Of a stretch of DNA of 38,025 nt, positions 3,952 through 37,129 are shown piece by piece (position 1 is the stretch's first letter; each line of letters begins with the position of its first letter). The stretch covers positions 1 to 38,025 of IMG/VR virus record IMGVR_UViG_3300030331_003119; one strand, 5' to 3'. Under the pieces are notes generated by a model. The model worked only from the letters and a program-made list of their open reading frames with translations, was not told the DNA's origin and searched no databases. Both the position numbers and the translations under genes were made by a program. The DNA comes from a virus.

Positions 3952-4558
3952 AGTTAGAAAAGAATATCTTTATGACATGGACGAAAAATATAAGAAACAA
4001 AGTAGTGACTGTGTTGTCTTTGGTCTTACTTCCATTTCAGGTCGTGCTTTATTATTTAACATTATGCTTCCAAATGGTGCATGTTATTGGAGATTACCTA
4101 TCTCAGCGTTTTTTCAAAAAGAGTTTGAAAGATTTCAAGTCCCAGATATGGCAGTACAAGAATTGGAACTATGGAATTGTTTTAGCTATTGGCCTAGTGT
4201 TCATTGTTTTGATTGGTTGGATGGTTTAAATGGAAAATATATGGGTATCGATAAAAAATTTCATCATGGTAAATATTTATTCACAATTGATTGGGCTAGT
4301 CCAGATACTAACATCTTGGACACTGAACATTCTGAAATACCTCAAGAACATAAGTGTGCACACATACTGGCTCTTACTAACGGCAATTATGCAGGTCAGC
4401 CTAATAATCGTCTTTTGTGGCATGTTAATAGCTACACTGTTGATAACAGTTGGCCTGACTATAAAGTCCAAACTACGTATTGGGATGCAGAAGATACAAC
4501 AATGGTGACAGAAGATACAGATAAAATGTTTTATCAAATGAAAGAAAAATGGAAGTAA
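3911..4558 (+). CDS. Conserved hypothetical protein
   Basis: A 215-residue soluble protein rich in Trp, Tyr, Phe and His with no membrane segment. It has the look of a folded beta-rich protein (for example LLFNIMLPNGACYWRLP, LWNCFSYWPSVHCFDW and YLFTIDWASP). Homologues occur in many marine phages near lysis and tail genes as I recall, without an assigned function. GGAGGG precedes the ATG by about 13 bases. Out-of-frame open stretches inside this gene are shadows. Confidence 0.7.
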   Translation: MAYLNANIPPIYCKVRKEYLYDMDEKYKKQSSDCVVFGLTSISGRALLFNIMLPNGACYWRLPISAFFQKEFERFQVPDMAVQELELWNCFSYWPSVHCFDWLDGLNGKYMGIDKKFHHGKYLFTIDWASPDTNILDTEHSEIPQEHKCAHILALTNGNYAGQPNNRLLWHVNSYTVDNSWPDYKVQTTYWDAEDTTMVTEDTDKMFYQMKEKWK

Positions 4559-5019
4559 TAGATAATTTTTTATCTAAAGAAGAATTTATCAATATAAAAA
4601 AAACTATAATAGATAGATCGTTCCCTTTATATTTTGCAGATTATATTAATGATAATGACAAATTAAATTATTATTTTTTACATTTTTTTTATGATGAATT
4701 TGTTCCCATGAGTCCTTTTTTAAATATCTTAAAACCTTTATTTGAAAAATTAAAAATTAAAGCACTCTTGAGAGCAAAAGTTAATTGTTTTCCAAGAACA
4801 GAGAAACTTATAATTTATGAACCACACCGAGACTATGATTTTAGTCATAATGGTGCTATACTGTATTTAAATAATTGTAATGGGGGAACATATGTTGGAG
4901 ACAAATTTTTTCAATCAAAAGAAAACAGAGTCCTTTTATTTGACTCCTCACAAAAACATAGTAGTACAAACTGCACAGATCAAAAGTGTAGATATAATAT
5001 TAATATAAATTTTTTTTAA
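4549..5019 (+). CDS. 2OG-Fe(II) oxygenase, prolyl-4-hydroxylase type
   Basis: A 156-residue compact double-stranded beta-helix enzyme. The Fe(II) triad is visible as H93-x-D95 (EPHRDYDFSHNGAILYLN) and H137 (LLFDSSQKHSS), with R148 about ten residues later as the 2-oxoglutarate-binding residue. Family members hydroxylate protein side chains, nucleobases or small molecules using 2-oxoglutarate and O2; the substrate is not predictable here. It overlaps the preceding gene by 10 nt and shares one base with the M15 peptidase gene that follows. The gene is markedly AT-rich. Confidence 0.8.
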   Translation: MEVIDNFLSKEEFINIKKTIIDRSFPLYFADYINDNDKLNYYFLHFFYDEFVPMSPFLNILKPLFEKLKIKALLRAKVNCFPRTEKLIIYEPHRDYDFSHNGAILYLNNCNGGTYVGDKFFQSKENRVLLFDSSQKHSSTNCTDQKCRYNININFF

Positions 5020-5505: not shown

Positions 5506-6030
5506 ATGGTTAAATTACTTACACACTTAGAAATACCAGTGCAACAACAAATATTTTTTTATGAGGCACAAATGCCCTCTTTTAACGAAAACTATTTTAT
5601 ACAAAAAATAGAAGAGGGTATTAAATTACAAAATAACTTTAATTATAAAACTAATGTAAAAGGTTTTATGACATCATGGAAATATTTTAATGAAGATCAG
5701 GAATTTCACAATTTATTAACAAATTTTTTTACAGGCATAAAATTTAGAAAACCTTGTAATTATAAATTAATGGATTCATGGGGTTTAAAATGTATACAAG
5801 GTAATAGAACAGAGTTTCACAACCACATGGAAGCATCTGCATCAGGTATTTTTTATTTGTCTGATTGCACCTCACCAATAATTTTTCCACAATTAGAAAA
5901 AGAATTTTATCCTAAAAAAGGTAAAGTTTTATTTTTTGATCCAACTTTAACGCACGGGACAGCTGAAATAAAAGAAGGCGAAAAATATGCTATAGCTTTT
6001 AATCTATTTGAATCAAAAGCCTGGGACTAA
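5506..6030 (+). CDS. 2OG-Fe(II)/cupin-type oxygenase-like protein
   Basis: A 174-residue protein with the pattern WGLKCIQGNRTEFHNHMEA followed by SGIFYLSD, giving putative metal ligands H105 and H107, and H150 in FFDPTLTHGT. This is the arrangement of the putative 2OG-Fe(II) oxygenase family (TIGR02466-like) found in marine phages, in which an HxH replaces the usual HxD. The last strand (YAIAFNLF) is typical. No Arg is seen at the usual 2OG position, so cofactor use is uncertain. Very AT-rich; it follows the endolysin by 10 bases and overlaps the next gene by one base. Confidence 0.7.
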   Translation: MVKLLTHLEIPVQQQIFFYEAQMPSFNENYFIQKIEEGIKLQNNFNYKTNVKGFMTSWKYFNEDQEFHNLLTNFFTGIKFRKPCNYKLMDSWGLKCIQGNRTEFHNHMEASASGIFYLSDCTSPIIFPQLEKEFYPKKGKVLFFDPTLTHGTAEIKEGEKYAIAFNLFESKAWD

Positions 6031-6530
6031 TGATTTTTAAATATGAAATACCTAATTTTGAAAGTCACAAGGATACTTTAATTAATTTATTAGATAATAA
6101 TATTAATTACACAATTCAAAATGATAAAGAAACAATAAGTAAAACAGATTGGCAATTACCAGAAAATTTAAAACAAGAATATTGGTCCTATTTAAAAGAC
6201 AATATATTAATTGATTTTAATAAGAACTTTACAAAAAAAGTTAATGCAAAAAAAATATTTTATAACAATTATTGGTTTCAAATTTATCAATTAGGTGATT
6301 CTCATCATGCACACCGACACCCAAATTGTATGTTCACAAACATTATTTTTGTAAATTTACCTAAAGATCGCTTAAAAACTAATATTTGGGATCTTAATAA
6401 TGTTAAATTTGACTTGTCGGTTCAAGAGGGTGACATCATAACTTTCCCAAGTTATTTACTACATGAATCTCCAAAAAATATATTTTTTGAAAGGAAAGTC
6501 ATTATTTCTTTCAACACTAATATAGCATAA
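6030..6530 (+). CDS. 2OG-Fe(II)/cupin-type oxygenase-like protein
   Basis: A 166-residue protein with the same beta-helix layout as its upstream neighbour. The pattern is WFQIYQLGDSHHAHRHPN (putative ligands H95 and H97), then GDIITFPSYLLHESP (H145), with R155 ten residues later in the 2OG-binding position. It is divergent from its neighbour, so ancient duplication or separate acquisition are both possible. This is one of the most AT-rich genes of the window. It is separated by 71 bases from the head-tail module that follows. Confidence 0.7.
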   Translation: MIFKYEIPNFESHKDTLINLLDNNINYTIQNDKETISKTDWQLPENLKQEYWSYLKDNILIDFNKNFTKKVNAKKIFYNNYWFQIYQLGDSHHAHRHPNCMFTNIIFVNLPKDRLKTNIWDLNNVKFDLSVQEGDIITFPSYLLHESPKNIFFERKVIISFNTNIA

Positions 6531-6601
6531 ATCAACAAATGAGGGTACTATACTGTTTAATACAAAAATGTTAATATATCTTAAATACCATTTGGAGGAC
6601 T

Positions 6602-6907
6602 ATGCCATTAAATAAAAAAGGTAAAAAAATCATGAGCTCTATGAAAGATCAATATGGAGACAAAAAAGGAGCAGCGGTTTTTTATGCTTCAGTAAACAAA
6701 GGTAAACTGAAGGGTGTTAAAAAAGCGGCAATGGGTAGAGCTATGTTTAGACAAACTACTTCAAAAGCTCCTGGCGATGCACAAATGAAAGTAAAAGAGC
6801 CTTATGTTGGAAGTTATATAAAATCAGAAATTGATGGCACTAAAATTTCTAATAAAAGTTATGAAAAATATTATGGAAGTTTATTGAAAGGATTTAAAAA
6901 TGGCTAG
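6602..6907 (+). CDS. Small basic conserved marine-phage protein
   Basis: A 101-residue Lys- and Gly-rich soluble protein beginning MPLNKKGKKIMSSMKDQYG, a start pattern common in small marine phage proteins near structural modules. It has a second half ending YEKYYGSLLKGFKNG. GGAGG sits about 6 bases before the ATG. It opens the adaptor/tail module and overlaps the next gene by 8 nt. The charge is compatible with DNA contact in the virion, but the function is unknown. Confidence 0.65.
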   Translation: MPLNKKGKKIMSSMKDQYGDKKGAAVFYASVNKGKLKGVKKAAMGRAMFRQTTSKAPGDAQMKVKEPYVGSYIKSEIDGTKISNKSYEKYYGSLLKGFKNG

Positions 6908-7085: not shown

Positions 7086-7780
7086 TGGCTACATCAGGAA
7101 CTACAGCATTTAATTTAAATATCGATGATATTATTCAAGAGGGCTATCAAAGATGTGCAGTAACAACCACTTCAGGATATGATTTAAGATCTGCAAGAAG
7201 AAGTTTAGATTTATTATTTGCTGAATGGGGTAATCGTGGAATTCATCTTTGGAAAGTAGAGTTAAATGAGAATGCTTTAGTTTCTGGACAAGCTGAGTAT
7301 TCTGTGCAATCTGATGTTAGTGATGTATTAGAGGCGTTCGTTTCGTCTACAGCAACTGCAAGTGATAATGCAAACACACAAGACATATCATTAACCAAAA
7401 TTGATAGATCTGCTTACGCTGCTTTACCTAACAAACTTGCAACTGGTCAACCATCACAATATTATGTTGAAAGAAAAACAACTCCTAAGATTTATCTATA
7501 TCAGGCACCTGATTTAAACACATATACAACTTTGAAATATTATGTAATAAAAAGAATAGAAGATGCTGGAGCTTACACAAATGATGCAGACGTGGTCTAT
7601 AGATTTTTACCATGTATGTGTGCAGGTATAGCTTATTATTTATCAATGAAAGTTGCACCACAAATGGTTCAACAAAATAAATTAATTTATGAGGATGAGT
7701 TAAAAAGAGCGTTGGATGAAGATGGTCAAAGAACATCTGTTTACCTTTCACCTCAATCATTCTATCCGAGCGGAGTTTAA
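7085..7780 (+). CDS. Head-tail adaptor-like protein (P22 gp4/T7 gp11 role)
   Basis: A 231-residue protein with an N-terminal helical segment (DIIQEGYQRCAV, DLRSARRSLDLLFAEWGNRG), a beta-rich centre (SGQAEYSV, GQPSQYYVERKTTPKIYLYQAP) and a C-terminal helix pair (CAGIAYYLSMKV). This order matches the phage adaptor family (SU10-adaptor/P22 gp4-like) that forms the ring between portal and tail. The gene at 8190 has a similar order of elements and may be a distant paralogue. The family assignment is by pattern, and the exact position in the neck is inference. Confidence 0.7.
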   Translation: MATSGTTAFNLNIDDIIQEGYQRCAVTTTSGYDLRSARRSLDLLFAEWGNRGIHLWKVELNENALVSGQAEYSVQSDVSDVLEAFVSSTATASDNANTQDISLTKIDRSAYAALPNKLATGQPSQYYVERKTTPKIYLYQAPDLNTYTTLKYYVIKRIEDAGAYTNDADVVYRFLPCMCAGIAYYLSMKVAPQMVQQNKLIYEDELKRALDEDGQRTSVYLSPQSFYPSGV

Positions 7781-7782
7781 TT

Positions 7783-8190
7783 ATGTCAAAATTTGCAACT
7801 GGTAAAAACTCTTTAGCAATATCTGATAGATCAGGTCAAGCTTTTCCATATAATGAAATGGTTAAAGAATGGAATGGCTCTCTTGTTCACATATCAGAGT
7901 TTGAACCTAAACATCCACAAATACGTAGAAGACAAGCAGTAAGTGATGCAATAGCGTTACAAGATGCAAGACCTATGAGATTTCAACAACCATCAGTAAA
8001 ATTTTCTAACGACACTACAATATCAGATTCAGGTGGAGCATCTGTTGGAGTTGCAAATTTATCTTTACCAGGAGATTTTGGTTTTATAACTCAAGGAACC
8101 TCAGCTATGAAACCTGCAGATCCATCATTACAAAATAGGAGAAGAGAACTTATTGCAACAATAAATTCTGTGGAGGTTAGTATATCATAA
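7783..8190 (+). CDS. Putative virion structural protein between the two adaptor genes
   Basis: A 135-residue soluble protein of mixed composition. It has a region resembling a DNA- or portal-contacting arm (KHPQIRRRQAVSDAIALQDAR) and a Gly/Ser-rich centre (SDSGGASVGVANLSLPGDFG). The final codons overlap the next gene by one base. I recognise it as a conserved neighbour of adaptor genes in marine phages without known function; neck or tail assembly is the likely setting. Confidence 0.6.
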   Translation: MSKFATGKNSLAISDRSGQAFPYNEMVKEWNGSLVHISEFEPKHPQIRRRQAVSDAIALQDARPMRFQQPSVKFSNDTTISDSGGASVGVANLSLPGDFGFITQGTSAMKPADPSLQNRRRELIATINSVEVSIS

Positions 8191-8855
8191 TGGCAATCAC
8201 TCACTCAGCATTTTTAACACAGGTAAGAAATTATACCGAGGTAGATAGTAATGTTTTAACAGACGCTATCATACAAGATTTTATAAGAAATGTAGAGCTG
8301 GATGTAGCAGGTAAAGTAGATTATGATGATTTACGTAAGTATGCTACATCTAATTTTACAGCTGGAAATAGAGCTGTATCAATGCCATCAGATTTATTAA
8401 TATTAAGATCTGTTGAACGAATAGACTCTGGTGGTAACAGAGAATTTTTAGAAAAAAGAGACACAAGTTTTATATCTGAATTTAATGGGACTGGTAAACA
8501 AGGTACACCAAAATATTATGCTAATTATGATGATTTTAATATTATTGTTGCTCCCACACCTGCCGCAGCTGATACTGTACAAATAAATTATATTAAGGAC
8601 GCACCAAATTTTACTTCAACCAATAATACTTTTTTGTCTACTTATCAAGAATCCATGCTTTTACATGGTGTTCTATCTGAGGCATTCAGATTTTTAAAGG
8701 GACCACAGGATATGTACAAGTTATATGAAACAAAGTATAATGAAGAATTACAGAATTTTGCTCTACAACAAATGGGCAGAAGAAGACGTGGCGAGTATGA
8801 TGATGGGGTTCCAAGAGTAAAAATTCAATCTCCTACTCCAAACACAACTTATTAA
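8190..8855 (+). CDS. Phage adaptor protein (SU10-adaptor-like)
   Basis: A 221-residue protein. An N-terminal helix pair (AFLTQVRNYTEV, DAIIQDFIRNVELDVAG) leads to strands AVSMPSDLLILRSVERI and the characteristic central block GTPKYYANYDDFNIIVAPTP, AADTVQINYIKD. It closes with a C-terminal helix (YQESMLLHGVLSEAFRFLKG) and a helix rich in Arg. This is the typical layout of phage head-tail adaptor proteins forming a dodecameric ring under the portal. Its first base is shared with the previous stop. Confidence 0.75.
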   Translation: MAITHSAFLTQVRNYTEVDSNVLTDAIIQDFIRNVELDVAGKVDYDDLRKYATSNFTAGNRAVSMPSDLLILRSVERIDSGGNREFLEKRDTSFISEFNGTGKQGTPKYYANYDDFNIIVAPTPAAADTVQINYIKDAPNFTSTNNTFLSTYQESMLLHGVLSEAFRFLKGPQDMYKLYETKYNEELQNFALQQMGRRRRGEYDDGVPRVKIQSPTPNTTY

Positions 8856-12012: not shown

Positions 12013-12744
12013 ATGAACATAATAAAATTTATTGCACCCAAAGATTATTTAGATGCAAAAGATAATTTTCCAAAACCCATAAAAACAAATATACCAGAAT
12101 GGTTTAAAAAGTTAAATCACTCTGTTGAAAAAAAAACTATTAAGGGTTGCATACCTTTTTTAGAAACTTTAACTACAGGATATTTATTAAGACTGCCAGT
12201 GGATACAAAAATTGAACACTATGTAGACAATGGTAGTTTAAATACGTCCATAGATGAAATTAAAAAAGGTGTTAAGAACCAAATGGGTTTGAACATAGGA
12301 ACAATAGGGTATCATCCAGTTGAACAAGTTACAGGCTGTCCCTTTGAAAAAAAAAATGGAGAGGGTAGAGTCTTTCACAAAATTGCTAACCCTTGGACTA
12401 TAAAAACTCCACCAGGATATTCTTGTTTATTTGTTCCTCCACTTAATAATTCAACTCAAGATTTTTTTGAAATTATACCAGGCATAGTTCATACAGACAC
12501 TTTTGAATTAGAAATTAATTTTCCAATCATATTAAATGCAGAAAAGTATAAAAATATAAATACTGTATTTAAAAGGGGACTACCGTATGTGCAAATAATA
12601 CCATTTAAAAGGGATAATTGGCAAATGAAAATTGAAACAAAAAATAATAAAAAAGCTAGTAAAAATTTTTTACATTGGACACTATCTTTTATACATAGAT
12701 ACAAAGAAAAAATATATAATAAAAATAAAACTAAATGGTCTTAG
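12013..12744 (+). CDS. DUF6065-like protein of unknown function
   Basis: A 243-residue soluble protein with blocks known from marine phages and bacteria: GCIPFLETLTTGYLLRLP, then ANPWTIKTPPGYSCLFVPP, GIVHTDTFELEINFPI and GLPYVQIIPFKRD. The order resembles DUF6065 proteins, which look like cupin-type beta folds; I call this from memory. No HxD triad is evident. The gene opens a cassette with two oxygenases and overlaps the first by 10 nt. There is no Shine-Dalgarno before the ATG, and the leader is nearly pure A/T. Confidence 0.6.
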   Translation: MNIIKFIAPKDYLDAKDNFPKPIKTNIPEWFKKLNHSVEKKTIKGCIPFLETLTTGYLLRLPVDTKIEHYVDNGSLNTSIDEIKKGVKNQMGLNIGTIGYHPVEQVTGCPFEKKNGEGRVFHKIANPWTIKTPPGYSCLFVPPLNNSTQDFFEIIPGIVHTDTFELEINFPIILNAEKYKNINTVFKRGLPYVQIIPFKRDNWQMKIETKNNKKASKNFLHWTLSFIHRYKEKIYNKNKTKWS

Positions 12745-13301
12745 AAGAATTAAAATATATAAGTATTGTTAAAAACGCGTTACCTAAACAAAATTTTGAT
12801 AGATTATTGAAATTTTTTGATAACGATATGATTGAAGAAGAAGCTAGAATTGGATCTGGTAAAGAGGGGAAGGTTGATGAAAATATTAGAAAAGTTGCTA
12901 TGCACTGGTTTCGACCTGATAGTGAAAAAATGACTGACGTTTATTGGTATAATTATTTAAGAAAAATATTTGCTAATCATGCAATACAATTTTTTACACA
13001 AAGAAATATAAATCATTCATTTTCCGATCAATTCGAAATACACTTATTAAAATATTATGAAAATAATTTTTACAACATGCATTCAGATTATGCTAAAAAT
13101 ACACCTAGAGAATTAAGTTTTTCTTTATTACTAAATGATGATTATAAAGGTGGTAATTTTATATTTTTATTTGAAAATAAAGAATATCCCGTTACTATAG
13201 AAAAAAATGATTTGTTAATATTTCCAAGTAATTTTATCTATCATCACAGAATAGATAAAGTGTCTAAAGGTGTACGAAAGGCAGTTGTAGGATGGATTTA
13301 A
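12735..13301 (+). CDS. 2OG-Fe(II) oxygenase, prolyl-4-hydroxylase type
   Basis: A 188-residue enzyme with a full triad: H116-x-D118 (NFYNMHSDYAKN), H170 or H171 (FPSNFIYHHRI) and 2OG-binding R181 (KGVRKAVVGWI). The strands SFSLLLNDDYKGGNFIF and NDLLIFPSNF are textbook P4Hc. The length fits the catalytic domain alone. The substrate is unknown; phage members are proposed to act on proteins, nucleotides or sugars. It overlaps both the DUF6065-like gene and the next oxygenase by 10 nt, so the three are likely one translational unit. Confidence 0.9.
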   Translation: MVLEELKYISIVKNALPKQNFDRLLKFFDNDMIEEEARIGSGKEGKVDENIRKVAMHWFRPDSEKMTDVYWYNYLRKIFANHAIQFFTQRNINHSFSDQFEIHLLKYYENNFYNMHSDYAKNTPRELSFSLLLNDDYKGGNFIFLFENKEYPVTIEKNDLLIFPSNFIYHHRIDKVSKGVRKAVVGWI

Positions 13302-13840
13302 AAAATAAAAAATATTTAATTTTAAAAAATTTTTTAAGCGAAGAAGTTAGAATGTTGTTAGAAAATCATTGTAAAATAGCGCATAGAAATAACAAAGATC
13401 AATTTAGTTCATCTGATGATGTTACTGAAGGTGACAGTTATTTTTATGCAGATCCAATTATGGAAGCTCTACTTATACAAAAAGGACCAGAGATAGAAAA
13501 AAAATTAGGTGTTGAATTGTTACCTACATATAGCTTTTGGAGAATGTATACAAAATATTCTTGTCTAGTAAAACACTCTGATAGACCTAGTTGTGAATAT
13601 AGTATTAGTGTTTTTATTGGTGGTGATCAAACACACAAATGGCCCTTTATTGCAGATGGTAATAAAATTAATATTGATCCTGGAGATGCTATATTTTACA
13701 AAGGATGTGAAGTAAAACATTGGCGCGAAGAATTTTTAGGGGATTATCAAGCACAACTTTTTTTACATTACGTAGATAAAAATGGACCTAATGCTAATTG
13801 TGTGTTAGACGGTAGATTAATGTTAGGACAAAAAATTTGA
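13292..13840 (+). CDS. 2OG-Fe(II) oxygenase, divergent
   Basis: A 182-residue enzyme. The N-terminal KYLILKNFLSEEVRMLLENH is typical of the family, then come H95-x-D97 (YTKYSCLVKHSDRPSCEYS), GDAIFYKGCEVKHW with H143, and YQAQLFLHYVD as the last strand. Where the 2OG-binding Arg/Lys is expected, ten residues after H143, there is Gln153, so cosubstrate binding may differ. The C-terminal tail is short. It overlaps the previous gene by 10 nt and the next start by 4 nt (TTGA). Confidence 0.85.
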   Translation: MDLKNKKYLILKNFLSEEVRMLLENHCKIAHRNNKDQFSSSDDVTEGDSYFYADPIMEALLIQKGPEIEKKLGVELLPTYSFWRMYTKYSCLVKHSDRPSCEYSISVFIGGDQTHKWPFIADGNKINIDPGDAIFYKGCEVKHWREEFLGDYQAQLFLHYVDKNGPNANCVLDGRLMLGQKI

Positions 13841-14075: not shown

Positions 14076-16229
14076 ATGCCTTTAACAAATGTACAAATAG
14101 CACCAGGATTCAATAAACAAGTAACCCAAACAGGAGCTGAGGGTCAATGGACGGATGGTGATTTCGTTAGGTTTAGATATGGACTACCTGAAAAAATTGG
14201 TGGTTGGGAACAAATTGTAAATGGTAAATTAGTTGGTGCAGCTAGAGAACAATTTATATGGGCAGATCTTGATGGCAGAAGATACGCAGCAATTGGAACT
14301 AATAAATTACTAGTTGTTTATTATGAAGGCGCTTTTTATGATATTACTCCTTTGGACACTGCATTAACAGGTTGTACTTTTACCACAGCAAATACGTCTG
14401 CTAGTGTTACTGTAAACAAAGCTGCGCATAATTTAGAACCAGGAGATTTATTTACGTTTACAAGTGTTACACCTCCTACAGGAGCTGGATACTCCTCATC
14501 AGATTTTGAAACTAATACTTTTCAAGTAGTCACTGTCCCAACTAGTGATACATTTACAATTACTATGGCATCAGCTGCTGGAACTACAGTGGCTGCTAGT
14601 GGTTCGGCTCAAGTTAATCCTTACGTGAAAGTAGGATCATTAACTCAAACTTATGGTTTTGGTTGGGGCACTGCTTTGTGGGGTGGTGGCCAACAAGTTT
14701 TCTCAACTTTAAATGGCGGATTAAATGATGATACTGCAGGGACAGGTGGCTCAGGCACATCAATAACACTCGCATCAACCACAGGTTTTCCATCTACAGG
14801 CACTATTAAAGTTGGGGCTGAATTTATTTCTTATACTGGCACTACATCTACAGAGCTGACCGGTATCACAAGAGCTGTTGCTGGTACGAGATCAGCTCAT
14901 ACAAGTGGTGCGGGGGTAGAATATTTTACTGGTTGGGGTGAAGCTTCTTTGTCTCAAACATTATCAATAGATCCTGCTTCTTGGTCTCTTGATAATTTTG
15001 GTCAACAACTTATTGCAACAATTAAAAATGGTAGATCTTTTTCTTGGAATCCTATTAACGCAGATTCAAATGCTTTACAAACAAGAGCAGTGGTAATATC
15101 TAATGCACCTACTGCATCTGTAATGTCATTAGTTTCTGATAGAGATAGACATTTATTTATGCTTGGAACTGAAACAACAATCGGTAGCACAGGGACTCAA
15201 GATAAATTATTTATTAGATTTTCAGATCAAGAAAACATTTCTGATTATACTGCAACATCAATCAACACAGCTGGATCTTTTAGATTAGACTCAGGAACAA
15301 AGATAGTAGGTGCAGTTAAAGGTAAAGATTATACTCTTGTACTTACTAATACAGCGGCATATGTAATACAATTTGTAGGTCCACCATTTACATTTTCAGT
15401 AAGACAAGTCGGATCTAATTGCGGAGCTATAGGACAACACTCTATTAAATATGTTAACGGTGTAGTGTATTGGATGGGTGAAGCTGGTGGTTTTTTTGTT
15501 TACGATGGTACTGTAAAAGCTTTACCATGTTTAGTTGAAGATTTTGTATTTACCACTAAGGGCGATAACTTAGGTATTAATTATCAAAATGGAGAATCTG
15601 TGTATGCAGGATTGTATACTTTATATGAAGAGGTTGTTTGGTTTTATCCTAAATCTGGTAGTGATAATGTTGATAGGTGTGTTACTTATAATTATCAATC
15701 TGGAGTTTGGACAACAGGCTCTTTAGCTCGAACAACCTATGTAGACGCTAATCTATATGATAATCCATATGCTACAGAATTTACCGCTACAGGTTTACCA
15801 ACATTTCCTACAGTTCAAGGCGTAACAAATATTAACGGATCCACCATATACTATGAACACGAAAAGGGTAACAATCAAGTAGATGCAGAAGGTAATAAAA
15901 CTGCGATACAAGCATTTATACAATCTGGTGATTTTGATTTAGATGTGGAAGGTAATGGTCAATTTTTTATGAGTATGCGAAGGTTTGTGCCAGATTTTAA
16001 AGTTTTAACAGGTGATGCACGAGTAACTATTAATCTTAGAAACTATCCAACGGACACCGCATCCTCATCACCGTTAGGTCCTTTTACAATAAACAGTTCT
16101 ACAGATAAGGTTGATACAAGGGCAAGAACTAGATTTGCCAACCTTAAAATAGAAAATACATCAACCGATCAAAGTTGGCGTTATGGTACTTTTAGAGCTG
16201 ATATACAACCCGATGGTATGAGAGGATAA
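14076..16229 (+). CDS. P22 gp10-like tail/DNA stabilisation protein (T7 gp12 role)
   Basis: A 717-residue protein of the family that plugs the short tail in podoviruses. The N terminus PGFNKQVTQTG, WTDGDFVRFRYGLPEKIGGW is typical, as are IWADLDGRRYAAIGTN, DRDRHLFMLGT and WMGEAGGFFVYDG, and the beta-propeller-like body. Two insertions look like separate small beta domains: residues about 98-182, and residues about 218-283 (GTSITLASTTGFPSTGTI, GAEFISYTG, LTGITRAVAGTRSAH). The start has no Shine-Dalgarno. It ends as TAATG into the next gene. Confidence 0.85.
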   Translation: MPLTNVQIAPGFNKQVTQTGAEGQWTDGDFVRFRYGLPEKIGGWEQIVNGKLVGAAREQFIWADLDGRRYAAIGTNKLLVVYYEGAFYDITPLDTALTGCTFTTANTSASVTVNKAAHNLEPGDLFTFTSVTPPTGAGYSSSDFETNTFQVVTVPTSDTFTITMASAAGTTVAASGSAQVNPYVKVGSLTQTYGFGWGTALWGGGQQVFSTLNGGLNDDTAGTGGSGTSITLASTTGFPSTGTIKVGAEFISYTGTTSTELTGITRAVAGTRSAHTSGAGVEYFTGWGEASLSQTLSIDPASWSLDNFGQQLIATIKNGRSFSWNPINADSNALQTRAVVISNAPTASVMSLVSDRDRHLFMLGTETTIGSTGTQDKLFIRFSDQENISDYTATSINTAGSFRLDSGTKIVGAVKGKDYTLVLTNTAAYVIQFVGPPFTFSVRQVGSNCGAIGQHSIKYVNGVVYWMGEAGGFFVYDGTVKALPCLVEDFVFTTKGDNLGINYQNGESVYAGLYTLYEEVVWFYPKSGSDNVDRCVTYNYQSGVWTTGSLARTTYVDANLYDNPYATEFTATGLPTFPTVQGVTNINGSTIYYEHEKGNNQVDAEGNKTAIQAFIQSGDFDLDVEGNGQFFMSMRRFVPDFKVLTGDARVTINLRNYPTDTASSSPLGPFTINSSTDKVDTRARTRFANLKIENTSTDQSWRYGTFRADIQPDGMRG

Positions 16230-16744: not shown

Positions 16745-16908
16745 TGGCAAGAATAGATATCGTAATACCTGAACCTACTGTTGAGTATACAGAAGAAAAT
16801 CAAAGACAAGTAACTCAGTCTTTACGAACTATGCAAGATAAGTTAAATACAACTTATCAACAAGAATTAAAAAATGAACAGGATGCTTTTAATTACTTTT
16901 TATCATGA
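16744..16908 (+). CDS. Small helical protein of the tail module
   Basis: A 54-residue protein starting MARIDIVIPEPTVEYTEENQ followed by one long polar helix rich in Gln (QVTQSLRTMQDKLNTTYQQE) and ending FNYFLS. The start overlaps the previous stop (TAATG) and the stop overlaps the next start (ATGA), so translation is tightly coupled on both sides. I recall similar short proteins between tail genes in marine phages. A coiled-coil structural or chaperone role is likely but unproven. Confidence 0.6.
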   Translation: MARIDIVIPEPTVEYTEENQRQVTQSLRTMQDKLNTTYQQELKNEQDAFNYFLS

Positions 16909-17255
16909 CAATTAGATACAAAAATCAAGGTTTCAAACAGGCTAGTACAGGTAAGACAACAGTGTTTACTTGTCCTAGTGATGCAACGGTCATTGTTAAA
17001 AGTGTTTATTGTGCCAACAGTGATGCTTCCTCTGCTATTTTAGTAAACATGAATTTTGTAGATTCATCTGACTCAAACACTGAGTATGAATTTTTTCGAG
17101 ATGATTTAGCTGCTAAATCGCAAGTCAACGCTACACCACAAGGATTAAATCTCGAAGCAGGAGATGCAATAACGGTACAAGCAGCTACAGGTAGTAACAC
17201 AATACAAGGTGTCATAAGTTATGCGCAATTAGATAGATCGCAAGAAAATGGCTAG
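16905..17255 (+). CDS. Small beta-rich virion protein
   Basis: A 116-residue soluble beta protein: QASTGKTTVFTCPSDATVIV, SVYCANSDASSAILVNMNF, DLAAKSQVNATPQGLNLEAG, DAITVQAATGSNTIQGVISY. The repeated strand-turn layout resembles small capsid or tail decoration proteins, and it may be a distant relative of the pair at 1521 and 1853. The start overlaps the previous stop by 4 nt, and the last 8 bases overlap the next small gene. Confidence 0.6.
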   Translation: MTIRYKNQGFKQASTGKTTVFTCPSDATVIVKSVYCANSDASSAILVNMNFVDSSDSNTEYEFFRDDLAAKSQVNATPQGLNLEAGDAITVQAATGSNTIQGVISYAQLDRSQENG

Positions 17256-17577: not shown

Positions 17578-18126
17578 ATGAAACAAATTTTATTTGATGT
17601 TCCCCTTTGGAAGTGTCCAATAGACCCAACAAAAATAGGATTAGAAAGCAAAAATTTTAAAAATTGTTTTGATTCTAAAACTTTATCTAGCTTCGCAGGT
17701 ATTAACAACTGTACAGAAGAAGGTCATAAATATTTAATTGAAACAATAATGAATGAATTAAAAAAAGATTTAAAAGTTTGGAAATTAGTTAATTTAAGAG
17801 CATGGAGAAATATATACAAAGATAGTTTTCAGGATAGACATAATCATGCAGGAAGTCACTTTACTTTTATAATTTATGAAAAAATACTAAAACCACAGAC
17901 TGTTTTTTACCACCCTGCCAATGATTTAATTAATGCTTCTGAAGGGGGAGATTACTATAAGTTATCTCATGAGTTAGAGGCAGATAAAGACACTATTTTT
18001 ATTTTTCCTGGATACTTGGATCACATGGTCAGATTAACAAAAGAAGGTATGTCAATATCAGGAAATTTTGACGTTATACCGCATCCAAACAAAAAATTAG
18101 GTTTAGACACTGGCGCTGGTTTTTAA
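17578..18126 (+). CDS. 2OG-Fe(II)/cupin-type oxygenase-like protein of the carbamoyl/glycosyl cassette
   Basis: 182 residues. The motif FQDRHNHAGSHFTFIIY gives putative ligands H88 and H90, and FIFPGYLDHMV gives H149, matching the TIGR02466-like phage family with HxH in place of HxD. No Arg is clear at the 2OG position. I chose the ATG at 17578, one base after the previous stop, over an upstream in-frame TTG at 17554 that would lie inside the preceding gene. The stop overlaps the carbamoyltransferase start by one base. Confidence 0.7.
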   Translation: MKQILFDVPLWKCPIDPTKIGLESKNFKNCFDSKTLSSFAGINNCTEEGHKYLIETIMNELKKDLKVWKLVNLRAWRNIYKDSFQDRHNHAGSHFTFIIYEKILKPQTVFYHPANDLINASEGGDYYKLSHELEADKDTIFIFPGYLDHMVRLTKEGMSISGNFDVIPHPNKKLGLDTGAGF

Positions 18127-19625
18127 TGAAATTTTTAGGTCTTCGTTTGTGCGATCACGATTCTTCAATTACATACACTGACGGTGTAGAGATAAAATAT
18201 TTTAAACCAGAAAGACACAAACAAATAAAACATTTTGCTTATGAAAATTTAATAGATTGGGTAGATGACGCTAAAAATTTAGGTATTAATTTAAAAGATT
18301 TAACTGCTGTAGCTATGGTTATTGATGTACACAAACATCCTTACCTTAATAAAGAAGATCCGCAAAAACTTTATGAATTGATTAAAATACCTTATAGTCC
18401 ATTTACAGAATTAGTTTGTCCAATTTTTAGAATAGATCATCATTATGCACATAGCTTATCCTCGTGGATGTTAACGAATGTTAAAGATCATCTTATATTA
18501 GATGGGTTTGGTGATTTAAAAAGATCAATAAGTATTTTTAATAATGAAAAAAGAACAAAATCTTATACATTAGATCAGGTAGGATCATTTGGTATGTTCT
18601 TAGGGGAGATAGGAGAACCATTTCAAATCAAAGGGCATCCAGATGATATAGCTGGTAAGGTCATGGCTCTCCAATCTTTTGGTAAATTAGACGAAAAATA
18701 TTTCAATCATATTAAAGATTTGTCTTTTGAAGATTTAAACTATGTAGGTAACTTTGGTAATTATTTTAAAATCTATGAAAGTTCAATTGCATGTAAATTT
18801 AATTTAATTAATTTTTTATCTACTGTGCATCATTTTGCAGAAAGTAAAGTTCCTTCTTTTGTATCTAAATATTTTACTAATGACACTGCATTTACTTATT
18901 CGGGTGGTGTTGCACATAACATTTGTATTAATACTAAACTTAAAGAAAATTTTCCAAATATGATAATTCCTCCACATTGTGCTGATGAGGGTTTATCATT
19001 AGGGTGTGTTGAGTTTTTACGAAACTATTACAAACAACCATCTTTCTCTAAAAATAATTTTCCGTTTTGGCAAAGTGATGAAGCACCTAAAACAAAACCG
19101 TCTAGTAAAACAATTAATCATATAGCCGATCAACTTGCGAAAGGTAAAATAGTAGGTTGGTATCAAGGTCATGGTGAGATAGGACCCAGAGCTTTAGGTA
19201 ATAGATCGATACTTATGAGTCCTGAAATACAAAATGGTAAACACATTATTAATCAAAGAGTAAAACATAGAGAGGACTACAGACCTTTTGCTGCTTCTAT
19301 TAAATCAGAAGCTACACAGAAATATTTTGATTGGAAACATGACAGTAATTTTATGAAATATAGTGTTAAATTTAAGGATAAAATATTTGCTCCAATTTCA
19401 CATATCGACAACACGAGTAGAATCCAAACTGTTGATGAAAGCCATCATATATTTTATGAACTGCTTGACAAATTCGAAAATAAAACAGGACTACCTATGT
19501 TATTGAATACATCATTAAATGATAACGGTAAGCCAATTGCAGGTTGTCCACAAGACGCTTTAAATTTATTTAAACAATCTGATCTTGATATTTTAGTAAT
19601 TGGAGATAAGGTGATAAAAAAATAA
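18126..19625 (+). CDS. Carbamoyltransferase, NodU/TobZ family
   Basis: A 499-residue, two-domain enzyme. The N-terminal (YrdC-independent, Kae1-like) domain shows CDHDSS near residue 9, the metal-binding HHYAH at 105-109, LDGFGD at 125-130, DDIAGKVMAL at 173-182 and SGGVAHN at 259-265. The C-terminal domain has GWYQGHGEIGPRALGNRSI at 344-362 and REDYRPFAAS. Family members transfer a carbamoyl group from carbamoyl phosphate (with ATP) to a hydroxyl of a sugar or modified base. Somewhat shorter than cellular NodU (about 560-600). It lies in a four-gene unit with an oxygenase-like protein and two glycosyltransferases. Confidence 0.9.
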   Translation: MKFLGLRLCDHDSSITYTDGVEIKYFKPERHKQIKHFAYENLIDWVDDAKNLGINLKDLTAVAMVIDVHKHPYLNKEDPQKLYELIKIPYSPFTELVCPIFRIDHHYAHSLSSWMLTNVKDHLILDGFGDLKRSISIFNNEKRTKSYTLDQVGSFGMFLGEIGEPFQIKGHPDDIAGKVMALQSFGKLDEKYFNHIKDLSFEDLNYVGNFGNYFKIYESSIACKFNLINFLSTVHHFAESKVPSFVSKYFTNDTAFTYSGGVAHNICINTKLKENFPNMIIPPHCADEGLSLGCVEFLRNYYKQPSFSKNNFPFWQSDEAPKTKPSSKTINHIADQLAKGKIVGWYQGHGEIGPRALGNRSILMSPEIQNGKHIINQRVKHREDYRPFAASIKSEATQKYFDWKHDSNFMKYSVKFKDKIFAPISHIDNTSRIQTVDESHHIFYELLDKFENKTGLPMLLNTSLNDNGKPIAGCPQDALNLFKQSDLDILVIGDKVIKK

Positions 19626-19629
19626 ATTT

Positions 19630-20559
19630 ATGGAACCTAGAGGCGCAACAGAATTACAACATGAATTGTTAAATAAATATGTTTCAAAAGATTTATTAGA
19701 TAAGGTGCAAATATGCACCTCTATACCAGGAAAGGTTCCAATTGATCCTAATAAAGTAAATATATTATGGCAAAAAAATTCATATGATCAAGGTAATTTA
19801 CAAAAATTTTTTTTAGATAAGGGGAGGCATCATGAATATGATTGGTATGTTTTCAACTCTCATTGGAATTATGAAAAATTTAGATATTTTTTTCAGCTGC
19901 CAGAGGATAAATGCATAGTAATTAAAAATGGCACTGATAATTTTCCTAAAATAAATCAATATAAAAAAGGTGACCCCATAAAAATTATACATCATTGTAC
20001 ACCTTGGAGAGGTCTTAACGTTCTATTGTTTGCTATGCAAATGTTAAAAAATAAAAATATTACATTAGATGTATATAGTTCATGTGAAATTTATGGTGAT
20101 GAATTTACCAGAGATCATGGCAAAGATTTTATTCCTTTAATAGAACAAGCTAAAAAATTACCAAACGTGAATTACATTGGTTACAAACCAAATGAATATA
20201 TTAAAGAACACATGAGTGATTATCACTTGTTTGTTTACCCGTGTATATTTGAAGAAACTTTTTGTGTGTCTGCATTAGAGGCGTTAGCATCTGGTTTACA
20301 TGTAATTACGACTAATTTTGGTGCATTACCTGAAACCTGTGCTGAATGGCCTGTGTACGTTAACTACTCAAAAAATCATGAGTTGTTAGCGTCCTCAACA
20401 GCAGCTGCGATAGATGTTGCAGCAGATTATCTACATGAAGATTACATACAAGAATACTTACAGCAACAACAAGATTATTACAAAAAATTTTATAGCTGGG
20501 AAAAAAAGGCTCAACAATGGACCAACTTTTTACAAGGAGCTATCAGTGTCAAACGATAA
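19630..20559 (+). CDS. Glycosyltransferase, GT4-like (GT-B fold)
   Basis: A 309-residue protein. The second Rossmann domain is clear: IKIIHHCTPWRGLNVLLFAM near 117-136, NVNYIGYKPNEYI near 179-191, and the donor-binding FEETFCVSALEALASG with the E-x7-E pair E209/E217. The N-terminal domain is short (about 100 residues), so acceptor binding may be reduced. The likely reaction is transfer of a sugar from a nucleotide donor; the acceptor is unknown. Four bases separate it from the carbamoyltransferase. Confidence 0.85.
   Translation: MEPRGATELQHELLNKYVSKDLLDKVQICTSIPGKVPIDPNKVNILWQKNSYDQGNLQKFFLDKGRHHEYDWYVFNSHWNYEKFRYFFQLPEDKCIVIKNGTDNFPKINQYKKGDPIKIIHHCTPWRGLNVLLFAMQMLKNKNITLDVYSSCEIYGDEFTRDHGKDFIPLIEQAKKLPNVNYIGYKPNEYIKEHMSDYHLFVYPCIFEETFCVSALEALASGLHVITTNFGALPETCAEWPVYVNYSKNHELLASSTAAAIDVAADYLHEDYIQEYLQQQQDYYKKFYSWEKKAQQWTNFLQGAISVKR
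20534..20539 (+). promoter_or_regulatory. Shine-Dalgarno that sets a GTG start
   Basis: AAGGAG with a 6-base spacer before GTG at 20546. This decides the start of the second glycosyltransferase, which otherwise has in-frame ATGs far upstream inside the GT4 gene. Confidence 0.7.
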
Positions 20560-21421
20560 ATTTATTAATGAAGACACTTATCAAACATTACAAGATACAA
20601 GAATAGAACCGCAATCTGATTTTGATAAAGCTATTAAGCCTTTATGGAAACCGAACACCGGACCAATGTCAAAAATAAAAATATTTTTAGGCACACCAGT
20701 TCATAGTGATGTATCAATACATTACACTCAAGCTTTACTTGAGTTTCAGGCAGAGTGTTTTAAGAAAAAAATACATGTTCAATTTCAGTTGATGAAATCA
20801 TCTTTAGTTACACAAGGTAGAAATTTAGTGGTCGCAGGTTTTTTAAGCACAGATTGTACTCATCTTTTGTTTATTGATTCAGATATTTACTTTCAAGCAA
20901 AATCTATATTTGCAATGTTAGATGCTGATAAGGAAATTATTTCTGTGCCATACCCTTTAAAAACTTTAATGTGGGACAAAGCTTTCAATAAGATGAGAGA
21001 GGGTAAAATAAAAAAACCTGATGATATAAGACGAGCCTTGCACACTTACCCTATGAAAGTGCCTGATGATAAAGATATTAAGGTTAAACAAGGAGTTATG
21101 GAAGTTACCGACTCGCCTACTGGATGTATGTTGATTAGAAGAGAAGTTATTGAAAAAATGATCAAGGCTTATCCAGACAAAGCTATTGTTCAAAAGACAG
21201 TTATAAATGGTGAATATGTTGATAAACCTAATATGTGGAATTTTTTTGACACATTACATGATCCTGAAACTAAAAGCTTTTTAGGTGAAGATTTTGCTTT
21301 TTGTAATCTTTGGAGAAATCTTGGTGGTAAATGTTATGCATATATCAATGATTCTATAGTCCATGTTGGGGAGCATCAGTATCAAGGTCGATTCTATGAT
21401 GAGTTGATATCTTCTAAGTAA
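20546..21421 (+). CDS. Glycosyltransferase-like protein, GT-A fold
   Basis: A 291-residue protein starting at GTG 20546 and overlapping the GT4 gene by 14 nt. Motifs are FLGTPVHSDVSIHY near 47-60, SLVTQGRNLVV, LLFIDSDIYF with the metal-binding DSD at 111-113, VTDSPTGCMLIRREV, FLGEDFAFCN (acidic catalytic-type motif at 247-249) and VHVGEHQY. This is the usual order for GT2/GT-A enzymes in phages. The substrate is unknown. It closes the oxygenase-carbamoyl-glycosyl unit before the virion module. A later ATG at 20666 has no Shine-Dalgarno. Confidence 0.8.
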   Translation: MSNDKFINEDTYQTLQDTRIEPQSDFDKAIKPLWKPNTGPMSKIKIFLGTPVHSDVSIHYTQALLEFQAECFKKKIHVQFQLMKSSLVTQGRNLVVAGFLSTDCTHLLFIDSDIYFQAKSIFAMLDADKEIISVPYPLKTLMWDKAFNKMREGKIKKPDDIRRALHTYPMKVPDDKDIKVKQGVMEVTDSPTGCMLIRREVIEKMIKAYPDKAIVQKTVINGEYVDKPNMWNFFDTLHDPETKSFLGEDFAFCNLWRNLGGKCYAYINDSIVHVGEHQYQGRFYDELISSK

Positions 21422-21464: not shown

Positions 21465-22469
21465 ATGGGTGCATTAGCTTTTTTACCATACGCGTTAGCA
21501 GCTTACGGAGGCTTACAAGGATACAGACAAGCAAAGGATTCAGGGGCATCTGGTATTGGAAGATTGTTAGGAGCTGCAGGTGGTGCTTATGGTGGTTTTC
21601 AATTAGGTCAAGTTGGAGGTTTTGCACAACAAGCAGGATTTAGACAACCAAGTTTTTTACAAAATATTCCAGGATTTACACAACAAAGACCAGGAGCATA
21701 TCAATTGCCTCCAGGTGCAGGTAGAGATCCAAGTAAGGCTTTAGGCTTTCCAAGTGGATCATCATTACCCTCAGCAGATCCAGGTATGGTAAATACAAGA
21801 TCAGTTACTGATTTATTGTTAAGAAAAAAAGATCCCACAGAGGGTTACGATCCAATTAAAATATCAGCTCTTGTTGGTGGTATTCCCCTAGCATTAGGTG
21901 CATTTGATCAACAACCTACAGATGTCTATTCACCAACTTATAATGTGGGTTATGCACAATTAGCTGCGTCAAGACCAGGATATTCTTATATTGATCCTGC
22001 ATCAGGACAAGAAAAAAAATATGAAGGTGTTTACATACCAGAGGCGGATCCAAGAAATCAAGGAGCCTTTCGTATGGGTCCATTTGCGATGGAAAGAACA
22101 AGATTAAGAACTGGTGGACTAGCAGAAATAAAAAAATTTAACGAGGGTGGAATAAATTATTTACCTTCAAAAGTTTCCCATGATGAGAACGATGCAAATA
22201 ATTATATTCGTGCACATGGATATGTAGAGGACGGATCTGGAAACGGAGACAAAGACGAAGATACAATGTTAGCTCAATTAGCAGACGGTGAGTTTGTAAC
22301 AAGAGCAGACGGAGTGTTAGGTGCTGGAATCATAGCTGGAGCAAATCCAAATAGTATGAGAGACATGCGAGAAAAAGGTGCAGCTTACTTCTATGAACAG
22401 CAAAAAAGATACAAAAGAGTATTTGATTTATTGAAGGATGCACATGGCGACAGCTCAAAAAAAAATTAA
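21465..22469 (+). CDS. Internal virion-type structural protein
   Basis: A 334-residue protein. The N-terminal 60 residues are Gly/Ala-rich and hydrophobic (LAFLPYALAAYGG, LLGAAGGAYGGFQLG), the middle is Pro/Gly-rich, and the C-terminal part has the motif LADGEFVTRADGVLGAG and MREKGAAYFYEQQKR found in phage internal proteins. Together with the next four genes it looks like the ejection-protein module of podoviruses. AAAGGAG lies ten bases before the ATG. Confidence 0.65.
   Translation: MGALAFLPYALAAYGGLQGYRQAKDSGASGIGRLLGAAGGAYGGFQLGQVGGFAQQAGFRQPSFLQNIPGFTQQRPGAYQLPPGAGRDPSKALGFPSGSSLPSADPGMVNTRSVTDLLLRKKDPTEGYDPIKISALVGGIPLALGAFDQQPTDVYSPTYNVGYAQLAASRPGYSYIDPASGQEKKYEGVYIPEADPRNQGAFRMGPFAMERTRLRTGGLAEIKKFNEGGINYLPSKVSHDENDANNYIRAHGYVEDGSGNGDKDEDTMLAQLADGEFVTRADGVLGAGIIAGANPNSMRDMREKGAAYFYEQQKRYKRVFDLLKDAHGDSSKKN
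22433..22437 (+). promoter_or_regulatory. Shine-Dalgarno that picks the second of two ATGs
   Basis: GAAGG directly abuts the ATG at 22438, leaving no spacer, but stands six bases before the ATG at 22444. The second ATG is therefore the likely start of the gp13-like gene. Confidence 0.6.
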
Positions 22470-36290: not shown

Positions 36291-36373
36291 TTAATTATTT
36301 GAGTTTTTTATTAATTATGTTAATTATATTTGGTGCAATAACTTTATTATTAGTGTTTTGGAATAATGAGTAA
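36287..36373 (+). CDS. 28-residue single-pass membrane peptide
   Basis: The ATG overlaps the DUF3310 stop (ATGA) and the stop overlaps the next gene by 8 nt. Nearly the whole chain is one hydrophobic helix: MINYLSFLLIMLIIFG, then AITLLLVFWNNE. Such micro-proteins can act as pinholins, inhibitors of membrane proteins or membrane anchors of partners. The position in the early replication module argues against a classic lysis role. No homologue is recognised. Confidence 0.5.
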   Translation: MINYLSFLLIMLIIFGAITLLLVFWNNE

Positions 36374-37013
36374 TTTATTATCAAGGTTTCATTTTTTTGG
36401 TCCACTACTTTATCATGTTAAACTAGATTTAAGTCACATTGAAAAGATAAAAGCTATGTGTTTAAAAGATAAAAATAAATTTTATAGAAACAATTTAGCA
36501 GGTCATATTAAAGATGAATATAGAATAGATCATGTAAATTTACAAATTTTGTTACAAGAAGCGATAGATGATTTTAGAAAAAGTTTTACGGCTTTTTACA
36601 AAATAGAAGCTCCAGAAATCTACATTTACAACGCTTGGGTAAATTTTATGAAACCTGGTGATTTTAATCCTCCACATACACATGCTGGAGATTTTTCAAG
36701 CGTACTCTTTATAAGTATGCCACAAGAATTATTAGATGAAAATAAGGAACACAATTCTCAACACATAAATAGTGCAGGTCCTGGATCTATAAGTTTTTTC
36801 GCAGGTGTAGGTGGCGGCATGTCTAATTGGAGACAAGACTTTACACCAGATGCAGGAGAATTATTTATGTTTCCTGCAGATTTAATGCATATGGTTTATC
36901 CTTACAAAAGTAATGTTGAAAGAGTTACAGTTGCGTTTAACATGAGGATTGAGGATGAACAAGGATATCGTAATAAAATTTTGAGGGATAAAAAAACACG
37001 AGATGAAAGATGA
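36366..37013 (+). CDS. 2OG-Fe(II) oxygenase, TIGR02466-like
   Basis: A 215-residue enzyme with the typical motif YIYNAWVNFMKPGDFNPP followed by HTHAGDFSSVLFIS, giving ligands H104 and H106, then GELFMFPADLMHMVYP with H175 and a likely 2OG-binding R186 (NVERVTVAFN). This is the clearest member of the HxH-type group in the window. The substrate is unknown. It sits between two micro-protein genes in the replication module, unlike the other oxygenases, which lie among virion genes. The ATGA overlap at its end couples it to a lipoprotein gene. Confidence 0.85.
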   Translation: MSNLLSRFHFFGPLLYHVKLDLSHIEKIKAMCLKDKNKFYRNNLAGHIKDEYRIDHVNLQILLQEAIDDFRKSFTAFYKIEAPEIYIYNAWVNFMKPGDFNPPHTHAGDFSSVLFISMPQELLDENKEHNSQHINSAGPGSISFFAGVGGGMSNWRQDFTPDAGELFMFPADLMHMVYPYKSNVERVTVAFNMRIEDEQGYRNKILRDKKTRDER

Positions 37014-37129
37014 TAAAGATAATTATTATGCTTGGTATTGTTATGATCCTGACTTCGTGCGTAAAAGATTTCGATTTAAACCCGGCTACTACTATCGTAA
37101 GATATATCATAAATGACTCATCAACTTAA
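37010..37129 (+). CDS. Tiny phage lipoprotein
   Basis: A 39-residue protein with a complete lipoprotein signal: MIKIIIMLGIVMI followed by the lipobox L14-T15-S16-C17. The mature part, from Cys17, is 23 residues (CVKDFDLNPATT, then IVRYIINDSST). Val at position +2 predicts outer-membrane sorting. The start overlaps the oxygenase stop (ATGA) and the end overlaps the polymerase start by 17 nt. Placement among early genes suggests a superinfection-exclusion type lipoprotein (as with T5 Llp) more than an outer spanin, but both are inference. Confidence 0.6.
   Translation: MIKIIIMLGIVMILTSCVKDFDLNPATTIVRYIINDSST

Follow-up and report, generated by a model that had tools for sequence, protein, structure and literature searches.

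The O-carbamoyltransferases GdmN and NovN require a hydroxyl group as acceptor, NodU-type carbamoyltransferases carbamoylate sugars, and in antibiotic pathways pairs of a dioxygenase and an O-carbamoyltransferase work on small molecules. Phages are known to carry hypermodification clusters in which an Fe/2-oxoglutarate (2OG) oxygenase of the TET/JBP type is accompanied by a carbamoyltransferase and glycosyltransferases. A locus with a similar complement is considered here. It lies in a 38,025-base IMG/VR virus record (IMGVR_UViG_3300030331_003119, the whole of which is called the window below) and consists of genes for a 2OG-Fe(II)-oxygenase-like protein (OX), a NodU/TobZ-type O-carbamoyltransferase (CT) and two glycosyltransferases (GT4 and GTA). 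It departs from the TET/JBP clusters in that OX is not of the TET/JBP type by Pfam and in that the glycosyltransferases occur apart from OX-CT. By gene order and protein identity the window groups with the SAR11 podophages HTVC023P and HTVC027P and is part of a pelagiphage of the HTVC023P type; phages of this type are abundant in the ocean and their hosts are SAR11 bacteria.

The phage system that makes 5-carbamoyloxymethylcytosine (PMC8670742) likewise combines a carbamoyltransferase acting on a hydroxyl with a partner enzyme that makes this hydroxyl, but there the hydroxyl comes from a thymidylate-synthase-like dCMP hydroxymethylase, whereas here the partner would be a PF13759-type oxygenase, and PF00303 was not found in the records searched. 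Both TobZ and the carbamoyltransferase of that system (5hmC-CT, for 5-hydroxymethylcytosine) need a hydroxyl acceptor (PMC8670742). The 2OG oxygenases and glycosyltransferases of HTVC023P-type phages have been listed as loose auxiliary genes, and the word "carbamoyltransferase" is not in the main text of the paper concerned (PMC9599517). The analysis described below shows two units at the locus: OX-CT is a mobile two-gene cassette, separate from GT4-GTA, which is the core pair of these phages and permanently present.

A mobile oxygenase-carbamoyltransferase cassette

An earlier note on this DNA, made from the sequence alone, had proposed one four-gene pathway, but OX-CT and GT4-GTA each occur without the other. 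A scan of IMG/VR with GTA gave 70 loci, onto which the genes of the window were then mapped; GT4 stood directly upstream of GTA at 66 of the 67 testable loci and in 30 of the 31 clusters formed at 90% identity. Of the 24 CT clusters at 55% identity or more, 22 had an adjacent 2OG-type oxygenase, directly upstream in 21, against 4 of 25 among the distant, mostly cyanophage-type clusters (Fisher P 7e-8; clusters are taken as independent, which is optimistic for related phages, and oxygenases from outside the OX subfamily are counted too). The two reading frames overlap at almost all junctions, by 4 nt (ATGA, the usual case) or by 1 nt, and in the converse scan, with the OX subfamily, CT was the next gene downstream in 15 of the 25 clusters, while several of the others stood immediately ahead of GT4. 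The pair is inserted at two sites, and hence on either side of the tail gene TAIL717 in different phages: between h17376 and GT4-GTA, sometimes with other genes ahead of GT4, or between w13292 and TAIL717. PF00534, the group-1 glycosyltransferase family, had no match in six contigs of 14-19 kb where CT precedes TAIL717. Co-occurrence in relatives, which the note had put forward as a check, thus speaks against the quartet, whose parts occur independently, and for the two pairs, in each of which strict order is kept.

A related set of genes is found in HTVC008M, a cultured and unrelated T4-like SAR11 phage (NC_020484), where an unannotated OX-type open reading frame (ORF) stands at the end of the record (146761-147267) and CT (gp003) with two 2OG oxygenases (gp004, gp005) near its start, the set totalling about 4.4 kb if the record ends are joined. 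In a contig of the HTVC008M type (L232), CT is flanked by two ORFs (4298-4855 and 7726-8529) with GT42 sialyltransferase-like starts (GNGESR...CN), a resemblance noted by eye only. A scan of a genome collection for the OX subfamily returned one contig, in a metagenome-assembled genome. In other contigs (L102, L104, L085, L107 and L109) CT has different oxygenases on its two sides, some of them with the Arg motif described below, so that partner oxygenases are open to exchange or doubling.

The slot between the tail gene and GT4 holds variable cargo in relatives, with h17376 placed immediately ahead of the cargo or of GT4. The cargo consists of small proteins belonging to several unrelated sequence groups, with a few structural-looking ORFs besides, and its family matches are to 2OG-Fe(II) oxygenase, DUF6445 and cupin/JmjC. 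At least one small 2OG oxygenase-type gene was found in 17 of the 28 lineages with a complete slot, and CT in 3 of the 28; the slot ahead of GT4 is a hotspot of such small oxygenases, in line with a published count of eight non-orthologous 2OG oxygenases for the HTVC023P phage type (PMC9599517). A metabolic role has been proposed for the oxygenases of cyanophages (PMC3037559), and that proposal, together with the many oxygenases per genome, favours the view that they serve the balance of 2OG or iron during infection and carry out no specific modification. Such a role leaves unexplained the partnership with CT, the 4-nt coupling and the conserved motif of the OX subfamily, and is considered very improbable.

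Alternatively, OX-CT might make or tailor a free metabolite or a sugar nucleotide for use elsewhere, comparable to the carbamoylpolyoxamic acid of polyoxin. The oxygenase-carbamoyltransferase pairs of antibiotic pathways provide a precedent, and CT belongs to that superfamily, but the cassette comes without further biosynthetic genes (none was found among the CT neighbours mapped), and this explanation is quite unlikely.

Active-site residues of OX and CT

OX matches the 2OG-Fe(II) oxygenase family phrog_81 (E 1e-20) and, below the cut-off, PF13759 (E 0.002), the sole family found at E up to 1, with no PF12851; the note was right in holding that it is not TET-like. The model of OX is a double-stranded beta-helix, with best matches to 2rg4 and 3bvc (Z 13.9 and 13.6), which we take to be PF13759 structures, followed by prolyl hydroxylases among others. 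With the PF13759/phrog_81 oxygenases OX shares the fold and the HxH...H metal ligands (His88-x-His90 and the distal His149, all invariant), but it differs in the motif past the distal His. This reads R-I/V-S/T-x-S/A-F-N in other phrog_81-type relatives and G/S/A/T-x-S/T-I-S-G-N in the CT partners of the OX subfamily, so that GMSISGN of OX is aligned with RISxxFN, position 157 being Gly in place of Arg, and S-G-N stands for S/A-F-N. The Arg is kept in most phrog_81-type relatives outside the OX subfamily and is G/S/A/T within it. A second mark of the subfamily is an invariant Lys102, 14 residues past the first His, at a position reminiscent of the 2OG-binding Lys of FIH/JmjC enzymes; by this analogy Lys102 might take over the binding of 2OG in OX. 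As an exclusive replacement of the Arg it was rejected, since a Lys is found at this position in several relatives that keep the Arg.

CT is matched by phrog_1601 (E 5e-158) and, both above the cut-off, by PF16861 (E 7e-56) and PF02543 (E 1e-10). Its matches in the PDB are to TobZ, GdmN and novobiocin-type enzymes, and it has the architecture of TobZ, the Kae1-like domain being N-terminal and the YrdC-like domain C-terminal. The metal and active-site motifs HDSS, HHxAH, LDGxG, SGGVAxN and GPRALGNRS are present, and are conserved in A4. Both domains and the catalytic motifs are thus common to CT and TobZ/NodU, from which CT differs in being phage-borne and oxygenase-coupled. The gene identities given in the earlier note (oxygenase-like, NodU/TobZ carbamoyltransferase, GT4 and GT-A) are borne out by these and the following Pfam and PHROG matches. 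Three positions of CT are of particular concern, W345, G358 and R360, which are canonical and equivalent to W408, G421 and R423 of TobZ (the published numbering being shifted by +6 to that of the PDB chain, a mapping of our own). In a MetaGPA study the W/G/R positions separate modified from unmodified contigs (PMC8670742). The published 5hmC-CT differs, with RALCNTT in its sequence and no Trp where one would align, and the identity between CT and this characterised enzyme is 25% over 246 amino acids (aa).

The glycosyltransferase pair and the DNA question

GT4 has a Glycos_transf_1 domain (PF00534, E 2e-15) with the E-x7-E signature, seen in the sequence as EETFCVSALE, and no PDB sequence match. 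GTA (phrog_1574, E 4e-36) keeps its catalytic set of D111-S-D113 (DxD), E248-D249 (xED) and a C-terminal H273, all invariant, and its model shares the GT-A fold with STIV A197, LH3 (best over residues 293-519, which we take to be an accessory domain), Mimivirus R699, Mnn9 and COLGALT1 (Z 14-17), a resemblance of fold only. The combination of hydroxylase and glycosyltransferase in LH3 recalls the logic of this locus, but the likeness is known here from fold similarity alone, GTA being 10-17% identical in sequence to LH3, COLGALT1, Mimivirus R699 and Mnn9 (Z 14-16).

The pair is present in HTVC023P (77% and 76% identity) and HTVC027P, neither of which carries CT, and in relatives it occupies the tail/ejection interval, between TAIL717-h16905-h17376 and EJ334. 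Both families are also found in the T4-like phages DLP6, Cr30, phiM12 and RHph_I1_18 (4/4); adjacency of GT4 and GTA was rejected for these, the genes there being unlinked. In phiM12 and RHph_I1_18 GTA adjoins the sliding-clamp gene; in DLP6 the two are separated by one small gene, and in Cr30 by a few. GT4 of T4-like phages (L087-L090, L174-L177) has glutaredoxin in its vicinity, and its neighbours in Cr30 are heptose-synthesis genes. Oxygenases of PF13640 or PF13759 were absent from three of the four T4-like carriers and from a 57-kb record with the GT pair (L068), and GT4-GTA is therefore seemingly independent of such an oxygenase. In the cyanophage ACG-2014f (L181) a GTA homologue (5974-6732) stands among tail collar fibre genes, a further glycosyltransferase and a nucleotide-sugar epimerase being encoded nearby.

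It could be that GT4-GTA glycosylates phage DNA, with OX-CT, when present, adding a further or alternative base modification. The unlinked co-occurrence of the two families in the four T4-like phages favours this, as does the position of GTA beside or near the sliding-clamp gene, for which the binding of T4 alpha-glucosyltransferase (alpha-GT) to the clamp gp45 provides a parallel (PMC13216743). Highly modified DNA has been stated, with older work cited, to be common in rhizophages (PMC6992544), and thymidylate synthase (TS) plus aG/PT-PPlase1 is found in some HTVC023P-type clades (PMC9599517). Against this, PF00303 (TS/dCMP hydroxymethylase) was found in 0 of 26 records, with a positive control, the records including the complete HTVC023P and HTVC027P and, at 62-63 kb, two that carry OX-CT, although most, the window too, may be incomplete. 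PF12851 (TET/JBP) was found in 0 of 16 records in a search without positive control. A dCMP hydroxymethylase in the T4-like carriers was rejected, as the TS of three of them has Asn177 (a residue located by eye), the dUMP type, and is an ordinary TS. Neither GT4 nor GTA was matched by the T4 alpha-GT, beta-GT or TAGT families with E values allowed up to 1; the likeness to the T4 glucosyltransferases lies in the clamp-gene neighbourhood of the GTA homologues, and the sequences themselves are unrelated GT-A and GT4 ones. Further points against DNA are the distance of CT, with its canonical W/G/R, from the divergent 5hmC-CT, the situation of the genes in the late tail region, and the occurrence in unmodified contigs of a CT adjoining a group-1 glycosyltransferase (PMC8670742). 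As a whole the explanation is rather doubtful. The new DNA hypermodification that the note had envisaged is not supported for OX-CT, for which carbamoylation of the 5hmC type is rejected on partner genes and CT residues; for GT4-GTA, in view of the T4-like context, DNA may still be the acceptor.

The glycosyltransferases and CT might instead modify a surface glycan of the SAR11 host, for example blocking superinfection. Sugars are substrates of NodU-type enzymes, and the heptose genes beside the GT4 homologue of Cr30 and the glycosyltransferase and epimerase near the GTA homologue of ACG-2014f point the same way. However, no lipid-carrier, flippase or polymerase gene was seen at the locus, CT follows the oxygenase and not the glycosyltransferases, and the location is amid late structural genes; decoration of a host glycan is unlikely.

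Gene organization, proposed chemistry and target

The four ORFs are coupled as the note had described, with a 1-nt overlap, a 4-nt gap and a 14-nt overlap (Table 1). OX starts with ATG at 17578, 1 base past the h17376 stop; its own stop has one base, 18126, in common with the CT start (TAATG); the CT stop ends at 19625 and GT4 runs from 19630. GTA starts with GTG at 20546, preceded by AAGGAG and 14 nt inside GT4 (stop 20557-20559), and the identical overlap is annotated in HTVC023P. A longer GTA ORF from 20414 was rejected as a mechanical extension, relatives beginning at the same MSNDKYINEDTYQT. The four-gene order is also found in the independent contigs L006, L007, L009, L077 and L078 (97-100% identity) and is therefore no assembly artefact, and dN/dS is 0.12-0.15 for each of the four genes, indicating purifying selection.

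Table 1. Genes discussed in the text, in the numbering of the window
Feature	Position	Strand	Remarks
TAIL717, virion structural (tail) protein	14076..16229	+	phrog_3287 E 1e-81
h16905, conserved small protein, tail-GT interval	16905..17255	+	Synteny in relatives
h17376, conserved small protein of 66 aa	17376..17576	+	Left border of cargo slot; found, at 55-100% identity, in almost every relative with the GT pair
OX, 2OG-Fe(II)-oxygenase-like protein of 182 aa (phrog_81/PF13759 type)	17578..18126	+	
CT, NodU/TobZ-type O-carbamoyltransferase of 499 aa, Kae1-like and YrdC-like domains	18126..19625	+	
GT4, GT-B retaining-type glycosyltransferase of 309 aa, member of core pair	19630..20559	+	E-x7-E intact
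GTA, GT-A-fold glycosyltransferase of 291 aa (phrog_1574), member of core pair	20546..21421	+	
EJ334, first gene downstream of GT pair	21465..22469	+	Ejection/internal virion region by position; synteny in relatives
Further 2OG-Fe(II) oxygenase (PF13640, phrog_61), upstream of tail gene	12735..13301	+	
Further oxygenase-like protein (annotated family "ferrochelatase", phrog_2954)	13292..13840	+	

Besides OX the window has three oxygenase-type genes. Two overlap each other ahead of the tail gene (12735-13301 and 13292-13840), the "ferrochelatase" label of the second being doubtful, as the protein sequence has the look of a 2OG-type enzyme. The third (36366-37013) is of the PF13759 type (E 4e-15), has the usual motif, and is remote from the tail region, beside a DNA polymerase exonuclease gene at 37113.

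In the reading that we favour, OX, as an Fe(II)-dependent enzyme with the 2OG-oxygenase fold, would install a hydroxyl group on its target, and CT would activate carbamoyl phosphate with ATP and pass the carbamoyl group to the OX-made hydroxyl. GT4-GTA would be a separate glycosylation module, transferring sugars to some component, DNA or a virion protein, that every one of these phages has. The fold, motifs, coupling and co-inheritance of OX-CT across lineages and sites can be read from the sequences, as can the core status of GT4-GTA, its intact catalytic motifs and the co-occurrence of both families in T4-like phages; what we infer are the reactions of OX and CT with their order and target, and the sugar transfer by GT4-GTA and its target. 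Taken as a whole, this reading is given an even chance. The target of OX-CT is most likely a virion (tail) protein of the phage, a kind of target that the note had also considered, because the cassette adjoins virion genes at both sites, because the neighbours of the OX fold include many protein hydroxylases and because the known DNA routes fail. That an amino acid of the virion is hydroxylated and then O-carbamoylated, by an Arg-less oxygenase subfamily moving with CT between SAR11 phages, is put forward as a tentative possibility; we know of no protein on which hydroxylation followed by O-carbamoylation occurs.

A number of points weigh against this interpretation. In three contigs (L018, L191 and L198) OX stands directly before GT4 without CT, and OX is therefore not exclusively the partner of CT, while the six contigs with CT and no glycosyltransferase are short (14-19 kb). 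In the fold comparison of OX the nucleic-acid enzyme AlkB scores Z 10.9, almost level with the prolyl hydroxylases, and the fold is therefore undecisive on the class of target. OX is without the Arg that normally binds 2OG, which may mean another mode of 2OG binding or an altered activity. No target residue of OX-CT was found when tail, glycosyltransferase and ejection proteins were compared for positions that vary with the presence of the cassette; the signal was not clean and was confounded by clade.

A defined mobile OX-CT cassette, together with the related gene set of HTVC008M, nevertheless leads to a testable chemical hypothesis, and the cassette could show what purpose many phage oxygenases serve.

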